Position numbers and translations under genes: made by a program. From Sphaerisporangium rufum (GTDB taxonomy: Bacteria > Actinomycetota > Actinomycetes > Streptosporangiales > Streptosporangiaceae), in the NCBI RefSeq assembly GCF_016863395.1, contig NZ_BOOU01000054.1, positions 62,001 through 126,000 on the forward strand: 64,000 nt of DNA. Reading direction: 5' to 3'. Of the stretch, positions 40,928-46,054 are shown piece after piece. Within the stretch, counting starts at the first letter, position 1. Each line of letters begins with the position of its first letter. The notes under the pieces are model-generated. The model was not told the DNA's origin. It was given only the letters and a program-made list of their open reading frames with translations, and did no database searches.

Positions 40928-41854
40928 CTATTCGGCGATTGTCGATTTATCGCTTTTATCCGGAATGGAGGGTTTCTGTCGCGTTCGGATGGCCAGCCCG
41001 GCACACCCGATCACCGCGAGGCCGCCGAGGACGGTGGCCCAGGTGATCCGCTCGCCCAGCAGCAGCGCCGCCCAGCTCACCCCCAGCACCGGCTGGACAA
41101 GCTGGATCTGGCCGACCTGGGCGATCGGCCCGATGGCGAGCCCGCGGTACCAGGCGAAGAAGCCGAGGAACATGCTCACCAGGCCCAGGTAGCCGAACGC
41201 CGCCCACTCGGCCGGGGTCCCGGCCGGCGGCCGGGCCGCCGCCGCCAGCCCGGCCAGCACGAGCATGACCGGCGCGGCCAGCACCAGCGCCCAGGAGATC
41301 GTCTGCCAGGCGCCGAGTTCCCGGGACAGCAGCCCGCCCTCGGCGTAGCCGACCGCGGCCGCGGCGACCGCGCCGAGCAGCAGCAGATCGGCCCAGCGCA
41401 AACCGCCGGACCCGCCGCCGCCCTGCCACCAGGCGAACCCGGCCGTGACGGCCGCGCCGGCCGCCGCCATCGCCCAGAACGCCGGCGGCGGGCGCTCGCC
41501 GCCGCGCAGCACGGCCATGACCGCGGTGGCCGCCGGCAGCAGCGCGATCACCACCGCGCTGTGGCCGGCCGGGGCGGCGGTCAGCGCGAAGGAGGTCAGC
41601 AGCGGGAAGCCGGCCACCACGCCGGCCGCGACGACCGCCAGCCGGGCCCACTGGCCGCCGCGCGGCGGCCGCTGACCGGTCAGCGCCAGCGCCCCGGCGG
41701 CGAGCACCGCGGCCACCACCGCCCGGCCGGAGGCCACGAACAGCGGCGAGATGGCGCCGCTCTGCACGGCCACCCGGGTGAACGGGACGGTGAACGAGAA
41801 CCCGGCCACCCCGAGCAGGCCCCAGCCCAGCCCGGCCCGGGACCCCGATAGCAC
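40928..41854 (-). CDS. EamA/DMT-family transporter
   Basis: A 308-residue membrane protein with about ten helices in two EamA repeats. The first begins GWGLLGVAGFSFTVPFTRVA and the second LLLLGAVAAAAVGYAEGGLL. Typical exporters of this family move amino acids or metabolites out of the cell. I place the start at GTG 41854 (VLSGSRAGLGWG), just after the shared operator. The longest frame begins at ATG 41893 and would be encoded across the operator and even overlap the start codon of the divergent MocR gene, so it is unlikely. It is probably controlled by that MocR regulator. Confidence 0.88.
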   Translation of the reverse strand: MLSGSRAGLGWGLLGVAGFSFTVPFTRVAVQSGAISPLFVASGRAVVAAVLAAGALALTGQRPPRGGQWARLAVVAAGVVAGFPLLTSFALTAAPAGHSAVVIALLPAATAVMAVLRGGERPPPAFWAMAAAGAAVTAGFAWWQGGGGSGGLRWADLLLLGAVAAAAVGYAEGGLLSRELGAWQTISWALVLAAPVMLVLAGLAAAARPPAGTPAEWAAFGYLGLVSMFLGFFAWYRGLAIGPIAQVGQIQLVQPVLGVSWAALLLGERITWATVLGGLAVIGCAGLAIRTRQKPSIPDKSDKSTIAE

Positions 41855-41915
41855 CGGCCGGTCGGGCAGAGTAGCGCTACTATTGAGCTTCATGGACCAC
41901 GATAGCAGTGGCCGG
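41847..41915. promoter_or_regulatory. Shared operator region between EamA and MocR genes
   Basis: A perfect 12-base palindrome AGTAGCGCTACT (41870-41881) overlaps a -10 for each direction: TACTAT (41878-41883) for mocR and TACTCT (41873-41868, minus strand) for eamA. Two direct repeats of GATAGCA-N2-GGCCGG start at 41847 and 41901, flanking the palindrome. MocR regulators often bind combined direct and inverted repeats. Confidence 0.55.
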
Positions 41916-43334
41916 ATCGCCGCCGATCTCCGTTCCTGGATCGCCACCGCGGCCCCGGGCACCCGGCTGCCGGCCACCCGCGCTCTGGTCGCGCGGTACG
42001 GGGCGAGCCCGGTCACGGTGCAGAAGGCGCTGCGCGCGCTGGCGGCCCAGGGGCTGGTCGAGAGCCGGCCGGGCGTGGGCACCTTCGTCCGGGCGGCGCG
42101 CACCGCCCGCCCGAACGACTACGGCTGGCAGACCGCCGCCCTCGGCACGCCGCGCGACCGCCCGCCGCGGCCGTCCATCACGCTGCGCACCGTCCCGAAC
42201 GACATGATCGCGCTGCACTCCGGCTACCCGGACCGCGAGCTGCTGCCCGAACGCCTGGTCCGAGCCGCCTTCACCCGCGCGGCCCGCGGCGGCGCCGCCG
42301 TCGCCAGGCCGCCGGCCGCCGGACTCCCGGAGCTGCAGGAATGGTTCGCCGCCGAGCTCGGGGCCGCGATGCCCGCCGGGCTCGCGCCGCCCGCGCCGGG
42401 CGACGTCGTGGTGCTGCCGGGCAGCCAGAGCGGGCTGGCCACCGCCTTCCGCGCCCTGGTCGGCCCGGACCGCCCGCTGCTGCTGGAGTCGCCGACCTAC
42501 TGGGGGGCGATCGCCGCCGCCGCGCGGGCCGGCGTCCGCGTCGTCCCGGTCCCCTGCGGGCCGCACGGCCCCGACCCCGACGCGCTGGCCCGCGCGTTCG
42601 AGCAGACCGGGGCCCGCGCCTTCTTCGCCCAGCCCAACTTCGCCAACCCCACCGGCGCCCAGTGGCCGCCCGCCCTGGCCGGCCGGGTGCTGGACCTGGT
42701 GCGCGAGCACGGCGCGTTCCTGATCGAGGACGACTGGGCGCACGGCTTCGGCATCTCCGCCGACCCGGTGCCGGTCGCCGCCCGGGACGACGGCGGGCAC
42801 GTGGTCTACCTCCGCTCGCTCACCAAGATCGTGTCCCCGGCCGTCCGGGTCGCCGCGATCGTCGCCCGCGGCCCGGCCCGCGAGCGCATCCTCGCCGACG
42901 TCCAGGCCGAGTCCATGTACGTCAGCGGGCTGCTGCAGGCGGTGGCACTCGACGTCGTCACCCAGCCCGCCTGGCGCACCCACCTGCGCGGCCTGCGCCA
43001 CCAGCTCGCCGCCCGCCGCGACCTGCTGGCCGGCGCGCTCGCCGAGCACGTGCCCGCCGCCCGGCTGGAAGGGCTGCCACCGGGCGGGCTCAACCTGTGG
43101 GTCCGGCTGCCCGACACCACCGACCTGCCCCGGCTGGCCGGCGACTGCGAGGCCGCCGGGGTCATCGTGGCGGCCGGCGACGAGTGGTTCCCCGCCGAGC
43201 CGACCGGCCGCTACCTGCGGCTGAACTACGCCGGCCCGAACCCCGGCGCCTTCCCCGACGGCGCCCGCGCGATCGGCCGGGCGCTCGCCCGCCAGCGGGC
43301 CGGCCGGCCCGCCGGCCCGCCCGACCAGGACTGA
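41892..43334 (+). CDS. MocR-type regulator: GntR HTH fused to PLP aminotransferase-like domain
   Basis: A 480-residue protein. The N-terminal GntR helix-turn-helix is RLPATRALVARYGASPVTVQ. A short linker leads to a fold-type I PLP domain with PTYWGAIAAAARAG, the FFAQPNFANPTGAQ motif, LIEDDWAHGF and the lysine in LRSLTKIVSPAVR that holds PLP. MocR regulators sense PLP or amino acids and control a divergent gene, here the EamA exporter. ATG 41892 lies about nine bases after the -10, so the mRNA is probably leaderless. Confidence 0.92.
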   Translation: MDHDSSGRIAADLRSWIATAAPGTRLPATRALVARYGASPVTVQKALRALAAQGLVESRPGVGTFVRAARTARPNDYGWQTAALGTPRDRPPRPSITLRTVPNDMIALHSGYPDRELLPERLVRAAFTRAARGGAAVARPPAAGLPELQEWFAAELGAAMPAGLAPPAPGDVVVLPGSQSGLATAFRALVGPDRPLLLESPTYWGAIAAAARAGVRVVPVPCGPHGPDPDALARAFEQTGARAFFAQPNFANPTGAQWPPALAGRVLDLVREHGAFLIEDDWAHGFGISADPVPVAARDDGGHVVYLRSLTKIVSPAVRVAAIVARGPARERILADVQAESMYVSGLLQAVALDVVTQPAWRTHLRGLRHQLAARRDLLAGALAEHVPAARLEGLPPGGLNLWVRLPDTTDLPRLAGDCEAAGVIVAAGDEWFPAEPTGRYLRLNYAGPNPGAFPDGARAIGRALARQRAGRPAGPPDQD

Positions 43335-43550: not shown

Positions 43551-45962
43551 TCAGCCGGACTCGCGGACCACCAGCTCGCACGGCAGGATCGCCGAGGCCA
43601 CCGGGTCGCCCTCGATGGCGGCCAGCAGCATCCGGACGGCCGCCACCGCCTGCCCGGCCACGTCCTCGCGCACCGTGGTCAGCGCGGGGGTGGTGTACGC
43701 CGCGGCGTCCACGTCGCCGAACCCCACCACCGCGACGTCGTCGGGCACCCGCCGGCCGGCCGTGCGCAGCTCGCGCAGCACGCCGATCGCCGGCAGGTCG
43801 CTCGCCGCGAACACCGCGTCCACCTCCGGGTGCCCGGCCAGCAGCCCGCGGGCCGCCGCCGCGCCCGCCGCCCGGGTGCGCCCCCCGGAGACGACCAGCT
43901 CCGGCAGCCCCGCCTCGCGCAGCGCCGCCCGGTACCCGGCCAGCCGGCCGTCCACCGCGACGCCCTCCACCGGGCCGGCGATCATGGCGATCCGCCGCCG
44001 GCCGGCCGCGACCAGGTGCCGGATCGCGGCCCGCGCCCCGGCCGCCCCGTCGGCCTCGACGTACGGCACCGCCGCCCGCGGCCGGCCGAGCGCCACCACC
44101 GGCACCCCGGCGGCGGCCAGCGTGCCGGGCATCGGATCGGTGGACCGGGACGGCACCAGCAACGCGCCGTCGGCGTGCCCGGCGGTCAGGTACCCCTCGG
44201 CCCGCCGCCGGCTGTCCCCGGAGTCGGCCGGCACCAGGATCACCTGCCGGCCGGCCCGCTCCAGGGCGTGCGCCGCGGAGCGGACGGCCGCGGCGAACAC
44301 CGGGTCGTCGTCGCCGTCCGGGGACGGCACCGCCCCCTCGCCCAGCACGACCAGCGCGACGGTGTCGGTGCGCCGGGTCACCAGGCTGCGGGCCGCCGAG
44401 TTCGGCACGTAGCCGAGCTCGGCGACGGCGTGCATGACCGTCTCCCGGGCCTGCGGCGCCACCGTCCGCTCGCCGTTGATCACCCGGGACACCGTGGACC
44501 GGGACACCCCGGCCCGGGCCGCCACCTCCTCCAGGGTCGGCCGCCGGGGACGCCGCGAGCCCAGGCCGCCGCGGGCGATCACGTCCCGGTACCACAGCGC
44601 GCTGTCCTTGGGCCGGCGCCGCTGGGTGGCGAAGTCGACGTGCACGATGCCGAACCGCGGCCGGTACCCCTCGGCCCACTCGAAGTTGTCCAGCAGCGAC
44701 CAGACGTGGTAACCGCGCAGGTCGGCGCCGGCCTCCAGCGCCGCGTGCGCCGCCCGCAGGTGGCCCTCCAGGAACGCGGTCCGGTCGGCGTCGTGCACGT
44801 GCTCGCCGGTCACCTCGTCCTCGAACGCGGCGCCGTTCTCGGTGACGATCAACCCGACCCCCGGGTAGTCGCGCGACAGCCGCAGCAGCAGCCGGGTCAG
44901 CGCGGTCGGCACGATCGGCCAGCCGACGGCGGTCGTCGGCGCCTGCCCGCCGGTGAACTCGATGCCCTCGGTGCCGGGGAACGCCGGGTTGGCCGGCTCG
45001 CCGGGCCGGGCCCGCACCACGCACGGCGTGTAGTAGTTGATGCCCAGCAGGTCGACCCGCTGGTTGATCGCCGCCAGGTCGCCGTCCCGGATGTGGCCGA
45101 GCCCGGCGATCCGCTCGATGATGTCCAGCGTGGTGGCGGGGTACTCGCCGCGCAGCACCGGGTCCAGGAACTGCCGGTTGATCAGGCAGTCCACCCGGGC
45201 CACCGCCTCGGCGTCCGCCTCGGCCGGCACCGCGGCCGGGTCGTGCACCTGGGCCGGGGTGAGCACCGGCGCCAGGTTCAGGGTCAGCGCGATCTCCCGG
45301 GCGCCCGCCTCGCGCAGCGCCCGAGCGCCCAGGCCGTGCGCGAGCAGCAGGTGGTGCGAGGCGACCAGCGCCTCGGCCGCCGAGGTTCGCCCCGGCGCGT
45401 GCACGCCCACCCCGTAGCCGAGGCTGGCCGCCACCCACGGCTCGTTGACGGTCAGCCAGGTGTGCACCCGGTCGCCGATCCGGTCGTACACCAGCCGGGC
45501 GTAGTCGGCGAACCGGTGGGCGGTGTCGCGCGCGGTCCAGCCGCCGGCGTCCTCCAGCGCCTGGGGCAGGTCCCAGTGGTAGAGGGTGGCGTACGGCGCG
45601 ATGCCGGCCTCCAGCAGCTCGTCCACCAGGCGCTGGTAGAAGTCCAGCCCCGCCTGGTTGGCCGGCCCGCTGCCGGGCGGCTGCACCCGCGGCCACGACA
45701 CCGAGAACCGGTAGGCCTCGATGCCCAGCTCGGCCATCAGCGCGACGTCCCCGGCGTACCGGTGGTAGTGGTCGCACGCGGTGTCCCCGGTGGCGCCGCC
45801 CGCCACCGCGCCGGGCCGCCGGCAGAAAGTGTCCCAGATCGACGGGCCGCGGCCGTCCGCGCCGGTCGCCCCCTCCACCTGGAAGGCCGCCGTCGCGGCC
45901 CCCCAGACGAACCCGTCGGGGAACTTCAGCGCCCGCTCGCGGACGGTCGTGGTGGCGGTCAT
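43551..45962 (-). CDS. GH1 beta-glucosidase fused to a LacI-family transcriptional regulator
   Basis: An 803-residue protein with two complete modules. Residues ~10-460 are a GH1 glycosidase: FPDGFVWGAATAAFQVEGA, catalytic acid/base in LTVNEPWV near 170, nucleophile in IVTENGAAF near 373, and the closing DSALWYRDVIARGGL. Residues ~466-803 are a full LacI regulator: the helix-turn-helix PTLEEVAARAGVSRSTVSRV, hinge NSAARSLVTRRTDTVALVV and sugar-binding domain to the C-terminus. The ten-residue joint (GLGSRRPRRP) has no stop and no start codon for LacI. The closest independent start would be the GTG in RDVIARG. It could hydrolyse a beta-glucoside and sense it. ATG 45962 is used. Confidence 0.88.
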   Translation of the reverse strand: MTATTTVRERALKFPDGFVWGAATAAFQVEGATGADGRGPSIWDTFCRRPGAVAGGATGDTACDHYHRYAGDVALMAELGIEAYRFSVSWPRVQPPGSGPANQAGLDFYQRLVDELLEAGIAPYATLYHWDLPQALEDAGGWTARDTAHRFADYARLVYDRIGDRVHTWLTVNEPWVAASLGYGVGVHAPGRTSAAEALVASHHLLLAHGLGARALREAGAREIALTLNLAPVLTPAQVHDPAAVPAEADAEAVARVDCLINRQFLDPVLRGEYPATTLDIIERIAGLGHIRDGDLAAINQRVDLLGINYYTPCVVRARPGEPANPAFPGTEGIEFTGGQAPTTAVGWPIVPTALTRLLLRLSRDYPGVGLIVTENGAAFEDEVTGEHVHDADRTAFLEGHLRAAHAALEAGADLRGYHVWSLLDNFEWAEGYRPRFGIVHVDFATQRRRPKDSALWYRDVIARGGLGSRRPRRPTLEEVAARAGVSRSTVSRVINGERTVAPQARETVMHAVAELGYVPNSAARSLVTRRTDTVALVVLGEGAVPSPDGDDDPVFAAAVRSAAHALERAGRQVILVPADSGDSRRRAEGYLTAGHADGALLVPSRSTDPMPGTLAAAGVPVVALGRPRAAVPYVEADGAAGARAAIRHLVAAGRRRIAMIAGPVEGVAVDGRLAGYRAALREAGLPELVVSGGRTRAAGAAAARGLLAGHPEVDAVFAASDLPAIGVLRELRTAGRRVPDDVAVVGFGDVDAAAYTTPALTTVREDVAGQAVAAVRMLLAAIEGDPVASAILPCELVVRESG

Positions 45963-46054
45963 GGTCGGACAGCTCCCGTCTCGTGCCCCGGAGCGCGCGG
46001 TACCCCTCCCGCGCCGCGATCCGGCAGCCCCAATCATCGCCGACCCGGCGCGGC

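Follow-up and report, generated by a model that had tools for sequence, protein, structure and literature searches.

A GH1 beta-glucosidase and a LacI-type regulator joined in one reading frame in Streptosporangiaceae: one fused clade with a rewritten sensor domain

The window analysed here is a 64,000-nucleotide stretch of the Sphaerisporangium rufum genome. Its minus strand carries a gene whose translation yielded 803 residues and a terminal stop, with no internal stops (Table 1). An 803-codon frame holding both a GH1 beta-glucosidase and a LacI regulator had been proposed at this position by the first-pass annotation, which left the strand unstated; the frame itself was confirmed. The proposal that both modules are complete was borne out by Pfam matches to the GH1 domain, the LacI helix-turn-helix (HTH) and the sensor, and by the presence of the NEP and TENG motifs (residues 173-175 and 374-377 of the fused protein, respectively). 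By GH1 chemistry, we take E174 to be the acid/base and E375 the nucleophile. The GH1 half scored 582.4 against the NCBIfam GH1 beta-glucosidase equivalog TIGR03356, above the cut-off of 478.5. The sensor domain matched Peripla_BP_3 (PF13377; residues 647-802, 2.1e-32) and Peripla_BP_1 (residues 551-754), and membership of the LacI family was indicated by the PF00356 HTH and PF13377 sensor matches, both over their cut-offs. The hinge label given to residues 520-532 is our assignment from knowledge of the LacI family. The joint reads ...ALWYRDVIARGGLGSRRPRRPTLEEVAARAGVS..., running stop-free from the final GH1 helix through a short linker into the first HTH helix.

Table 1. Features of the fused gene, in window coordinates
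Feature	Position	Strand	Remarks
Fused GH1-LacI gene	43551..45962	-	803 codons, ATG start, TGA stop
GH1 beta-glucosidase domain, residues 13-464	44571..45926	-	Pfam PF00232 (Glyco_hydro_1), 1.7e-157
E174 codon (NEP motif)	45441..45443	-	E in 57/57 fused rows
E375 codon (TENG motif)	44838..44840	-	E in 57/57 fused rows
Linker, residues 465-475 (11 residues)	44538..44570	-	Site of GH1 stop and LacI ATG in in-frame unfused relatives
LacI helix-turn-helix, residues 476-521	44400..44537	-	Pfam PF00356, 4.2e-17
Hinge region, residues 520-532	44367..44405	-	L527 in 57/57 fused rows
LacI sugar-sensor (periplasmic-binding-protein-like) domain, residues 533-802	43557..44366	-	Changed positions e.g. 604, 606, 667, 695
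GGGAG, candidate ribosome-binding site ahead of ATG	45973..45977	-	Read from sequence

The neighbours scanned in the window were a zinc-type dehydrogenase, a MocR-type regulator, an MFS protein, a protein kinase, a PucR-type regulator and ABC-2 transporter parts, and none is evidently sugar-specific. The MocR-type regulator (GntR plus aminotransferase; window 40928-43334) overlaps a divergent open reading frame that appeared, by eye, to be EamA-type transporter-like.

An AlphaFold2 model of the fused protein, based on 39 sequences, had a mean pLDDT of 88.1 and a pTM of 0.67. Values under 50 were found at residues 1-7, 471-473 (linker), 518-532 (hinge) and 543-551. The model thus predicts two modules, each well folded and connected by a short tether, and does not give their mutual placement. 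As N-terminal protein fusions to LacI, such as GFP-LacI, are compatible with DNA binding, the GH1-LacI geometry poses no obvious obstacle to DNA binding. In a fold search of the PDB, the 50 matches listed were all GH1 enzymes, with no fused homologue among them. Among solved structures, the LacI half was closest to the LacI-family regulator PDB 5ysz (E 2.3e-71), which we take to be Thermobifida fusca CelR.

Within the genus Sphaerisporangium, the fused gene was open in 9 of 11 genomes, a recurrence beyond chance, with no fusion in the remaining two (G004 and G008). The other eight copies shared 67-75% identity with the window copy in the main segments, and the C-terminal segments of the G001 and G009 copies shared 55 and 57%, respectively. 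A query spanning the joint gave an open match in at least 83 of the 345 order genomes searched (341 of them from the family set), in at least 11 genera of one family, the Streptosporangiaceae; Nonomuraea rhodomycinica and N. ceibae are named examples. In each genome, scoring in the family, order and class scans was limited to the 10 or 11 best candidates, and these counts are therefore lower bounds. The open joint was checked in the sequence for 57 distinct copies and by zero stops inside the match for the remaining genomes; two genomes with open but partial matches (G304, G307) were left out of the 83. The recurrence of a GH1 domain followed by a LacI HTH in one protein, which the first-pass annotation had suggested looking for, was thus found in at least 83 genomes of 11 genera. 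As the joined protein has been kept in many genera, it is real and probably useful. An occurrence outside the family was also sought in a draw of 394 genomes from the class: at least six matches were open across the joint among the best 10-11 candidates per genome, and in this sample all belonged to the Streptosporangiaceae.

The unfused relatives are tandem GH1-LacI gene pairs homologous to both fused halves, in agreement with the kinship to neighbouring beta-glucosidase and repressor genes suggested at the outset. In some of these pairs the GH1 stop is followed directly, and in frame, by the LacI ATG, as in L051 (...RNGLQGE*MRRPTLEAV...); the fused counterpart of this joint (...RNGLWKERARRPTLEEV..., L032) has the same length, with the stop and ATG now sense codons. 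Other unfused pairs overlap in a different frame, for example ...TTCGCATGAAACG... (L068). In two unfused Sphaerisporangium pairs (L068, L069) the overlap of GH1 stop and LacI start is ATGA, which likely represents a translational-coupling stage. Counted from a conserved W to the RPTL motif, the joint spanned 17 residues in all but two of the 64 fused copies; the exceptions, L191 and L192, had 15.

In a tree of the concatenated domains, from which the linker was left out, the 54 fused of 120 rows formed one clade (support 100), and the fused rows were again one clade in each single-domain tree (support of 95 for GH1 and 100 for LacI). An enlarged set of 139 pairs, 69 of them fused, was reduced to 123 distinct rows by merging identical copies, and its 57 fused rows also formed one clade with a support of 100. 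All trees were short searches with SH-aLRT support only. The 54-row set lacks three distinct fused rows (L005 and L078 among them) and was used for the recognition-helix, linker, site-retention and upstream-core counts, and as the source of the pairs for dN/dS; joint-length and upstream-box counts used 64 fused pairs and 59 distinct upstream stretches. The first tree omitted two short sequences, the unfused L049 and the fused L060, which lies at a contig end; genus g14 is thus counted among the 83 genomes and is absent from the trees. Given one clade for all 57 distinct fused copies, a single fusion event is the simplest reading, and several independent fusions are ruled out for the rows examined by the concatenated and both single-domain trees. 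A sister-type unfused pair was also present in seven of the nine Sphaerisporangium genomes with the fusion, including that of the window (G000:C3:80732, 82113); in the other two, G005 and G007, the nearest unfused LacI head lay elsewhere (G005:C36 and G007:C1:1858117, respectively). One fusion following duplication of a GH1-LacI pair is the simplest reading of these data.

Both halves of the fused protein are conserved, to differing extents. Residues N173, E174, E375, W421 and E428 of the GH1 half were invariant in 57/57 fused rows, as were R488, T490, S492, R493, N496 and L527 of the DNA-binding region and R673, D722 and D750 of the sensor. In the recognition helix, R488 was present in 54/54 fused rows and in 23/30 unfused sister rows (K in the other 7), and R493 and N496 were invariant in the fused (54) and unfused sister (30) rows alike. 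To compare retention between domains, a site was defined as unfused-invariant when at least 95% of the 30 sister rows shared a residue that was also present in at least 85% of 36 outgroup rows, and as kept when at least 90% of the 54 fused rows retained it. By this measure, the fused rows kept 133/152 sites in GH1 and 29/30 in the HTH and hinge, and 39/69 in the sensor. The lost sensor sites include S604, H606, M667 and F695; S604, H606 and F695 were kept in 17%, 6% and 9% of the 54 fused rows, and the window residues are P, R and R. The unfused 5ysz has S-L-H at 604-606 and F at 695, compared with P-S-R and R in the window protein, and from this alignment and knowledge of the LacI family the listed positions would line the sugar pocket.

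The dN/dS values were 0.22 for GH1, 0.15 for HTH and 0.24 for sensor in 17 close fused pairs, and 0.23, 0.09 and 0.16, respectively, in 25 unfused pairs. Every part of the fused protein is therefore under purifying selection, with the regulator half somewhat relaxed, as the HTH and sensor of fused proteins evolve somewhat faster than those of unfused regulators.

The genomic setting of the two forms also differs. By crude gene calling, on which all these transporter counts rest, a solute-binding-protein cluster lay beside the unfused pair in all 17 neighbourhoods analysed and a permease cluster in 15, and both were found in 0/21 fused neighbourhoods. The exact palindrome GRGAGCGCTCYC was present at 16/17 unfused loci, and the remaining locus (L073) had a one-mismatch copy and AACGTT variants. 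Exact boxes occurred in 2/21 fused neighbourhoods: at L208, 5.7 kb from the fused gene, and at L222 (N. rhodomycinica), where two lie just where a GH16-CBM6 gene starts, past the 3' end of the fused gene. Seven further fused neighbourhoods had one-mismatch boxes, which in L211 (-156) and L214 were directly before the fused gene. In the window, no match to GRGAGCGCTCYC with one mismatch or fewer was present in the 24-kb stretch scanned. Autoregulation through this box was looked for and not found: no exact copy preceded the fused gene in any of the 59 distinct upstream stretches; one-mismatch boxes were found in two of them (L037 at -156 and L044 at -254; 0.35 expected by shuffles).

An 8-base core, GAGCGCTC, was observed in 9/54 fused upstream stretches, with 0.6 expected from mononucleotide shuffles, 37-46 bases upstream of where the aligned region begins (L149-L151, L157, L174, L177, L186-L188). 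As the nine rows are closely related, this perhaps reflects one event, and the core is possibly a weak operator of their own in one subclade.

To place the fusion in relation to the existing regulatory network, any unfused LacI gene whose head was near-identical was counted as the ordinary regulator. It was also present in 80 of the 83 fused genomes (24/26 + 49/50 + 7/7) and in 11 of 13 non-fused genomes, which were chosen by hand and not randomly for the comparison of boxes and regulators. As the ordinary regulator is common without the fusion, its co-occurrence with the fusion is weak evidence. Sites of the form GAGAGCGCTCTC numbered 2-19 in 9/11 Sphaerisporangium genomes, with 0 or 1 for a reversed-pattern control. 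The genomes of the genus without the fusion, G004 and G008, had no box, and neither had a sister-type unfused pair listed, so that the absence of boxes there is confounded. Three sites were found in the window genome, of which two precede the unfused operon. The third (G000:C13:2859; L251 2859-3472) is a perfect TGAGAGCGCTCTCA palindrome directly before a DUF1349 gene, which possibly belongs to the same regulon.

Fifteen GAGAGCGCTCTC places were inspected in the genus and ten adjacent proteins were profile-scanned. These comprised GH16, GH64 and GH2 proteins and three F5/8-type-C proteins (the sites at L257, L259, L262, L264, L265 and L269 adjoin proteins of these four types), as well as a GSDH-type protein, a cholesterol-oxidase-like neighbour, a pectate-lyase-like match under the cut-off and one protein without a match. 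The sites beside GH16, GH2, GH64 and F5/8-type-C proteins suggest a LacI-controlled glucan regulon in the genus, presumably for use of beta-1,3-glucan.

Ownership of this regulon by the fusion was not supported, as the boxes track the ordinary regulator. Boxes persist in genomes that have the ordinary regulator but no fusion (for example, six in G181, six in G184 and 14 in G078), and the three fused genomes lacking the ordinary regulator had 0, 1 and 2 GAGAGCGCTCTC sites (G150, G195 and G040, respectively; G040 is 83% complete), so that on its own the fusion may neither use nor maintain such sites. With neither fusion nor ordinary regulator, G173 had no boxes; G081, with three GAGAGCGCTCTC sites, is an exception. 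This distribution indicates that the ordinary regulator is the chief owner of the boxes; the best view of the fusion is as an auxiliary factor, if it binds them at all.

Judged from sequence, the fused gene probably represents an old, single fusion of a beta-glucosidase to an auxiliary LacI-type regulator whose sensor has changed. The genes of a GH1 beta-glucosidase and its LacI repressor, which stood last in a sugar-transport operon, would have been joined once through loss of their abutting in-frame stop and start codons, and the fused copy would now stand away from the transporter operon. The product would be a single intracellular protein of ~800 residues in the order beta-glucosidase, short linker and LacI-type regulator, and would be expected to cut beta-glucosides. 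As the fusion and the ordinary regulator agree in their recognition helix, the fused protein most likely binds the same GAGAGCGCTCTC class of operator as a second, auxiliary regulator, and may do so as its own dimer or as a mixed dimer with the ordinary regulator. As the sensor pocket is rewritten, it would respond to a different ligand or to none. Any coupling of hydrolysis to DNA binding within the fused protein is speculative.

We consider it rather unlikely that only the GH1 half matters, with the LacI half being kept for folding, oligomerisation or location and regulating nothing. The changed and variable sensor domain, the missing transporter operon, the lack of an exact operator before the fused gene and the box counts, which the fusion leaves unexplained, would all fit such a passenger role; however, the identity of R488, T490, S492, R493 and N496 in all 57 rows, the near-complete retention of the head (29/30) and the dN/dS of 0.15 for the HTH are hard to explain without DNA binding. 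A strict trigger enzyme appears improbable. Here, DNA binding would be governed by the GH1 half as it binds or turns over its substrate, or an operator-held hydrolase would destroy the inducer locally, and the GH1 half would further have taken over the sensing lost by the LacI pocket. The kept active site, the loss of sensor positions conserved in unfused relatives and the constant joint length (62/64) are consistent with this, but the predicted structure of two well-folded modules (pTM 0.67) gives no evidence for their packing. A simple form of the mechanism is further weakened by the frequent changes at conserved sensor positions, by the 0/59 upstream stretches with an exact GRGAGCGCTCYC operator, and by genome boxes that accompany the ordinary regulator and not the fusion. 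That the GH1 half is itself the repressor's sensor, reading or destroying the inducer at the operator after the original LacI pocket was given up, is likewise doubtful. If true, one protein would measure the flux of its own reaction and, together with the ordinary repressor, tune a common beta-glucan regulon.

Release of the LacI half as a second protein, by an internal translation start or by proteolysis of the linker, is highly unlikely. An ATG, GTG or TTG codon was present in the wider joint region of 18/54 fused rows (ATG in one), and V461 and V480 of the window protein are encoded by GTG; however, SD-like words were found at the joint of 10/54 fused rows compared with 22/33 in-frame unfused pairs, 32/33 of which also have an ATG there. 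The first-pass annotation had named a stop at the joint or an internal LacI start as evidence against one protein; at the sequence level there was no stop, and the linker proper contained an ATG in 0/54 fused rows and a GTG in one. An assembly or sequencing artefact at the joint, in favour of which nothing was found, can be dismissed almost entirely, being ruled out by an open joint in at least 83 genomes of 11 genera and by 57 distinct copies in one clade.

The probable auxiliary enzyme-regulator has counterparts among known systems. In the Streptomyces cebR-cebEFG-bglC cluster, as described in the available text of PMC4890002, the LacI-family CebR and the beta-glucosidase bglC are separate proteins with a transporter operon. 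The likeness lies in a LacI-family regulator and a beta-glucosidase of one sugar pathway, and the CebR operator given there, TGGGAGCGCTCCCA, is closely similar to the GRGAGCGCTCYC box of the unfused relatives. In contrast, the fusion is one polypeptide with a changed sensor, no transporter cluster (0/21) and no exact operator before the gene. The unfused GH1-LacI pairs of actinobacteria, in Streptosporangiaceae and others, share the main recognition-helix positions with the fusion, but are separate genes with a stop and a start, and have transporter genes and operator boxes alongside. A more distant case comes from Clostridium thermocellum, of another phylum. Its GlyR3 is also of the LacI family and regulates a glucanase operon, and laminaribiose releases it from the celC site according to PMC5483248; unlike the fusion, GlyR3 is a separate protein.

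Enzyme-regulator fusions are themselves known, and PutA, BirA, NadR and MocR each combine an enzyme or enzyme-like domain with a DNA-binding domain in one chain. To our knowledge, no such protein unites a glycoside hydrolase and a LacI repressor. Full-text literature search found no account of the GH1-LacI form within the texts available, although domain-architecture databases may list the form, and the words 'fused' and 'fusion' are absent from the available main text of PMC4052901. As far as these sources extend, both parts and their neighbourhood are already known, and the fused form was not found reported. With the stop/start state still visible in living relatives and one clade kept across many genera of the family, this union of a whole glycosidase and a whole LacI repressor is a clean example from nature of two paired genes turning into a single protein. 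The kept DNA-reading head and rewritten sensor amount to a testable claim on how fusion alters signal input, and the fusion may be of use as a natural template for enzyme-repressors that respond to sugars.

In the two genomes with partial open matches, the LacI gene (L169 at G304:C28 and L170 at G307:C93) has its own ATG and resembles the unfused lineage. A short C-terminal GH1 remnant precedes this ATG in frame, with no stop between, and the enzyme seems to have been lost from this pair.
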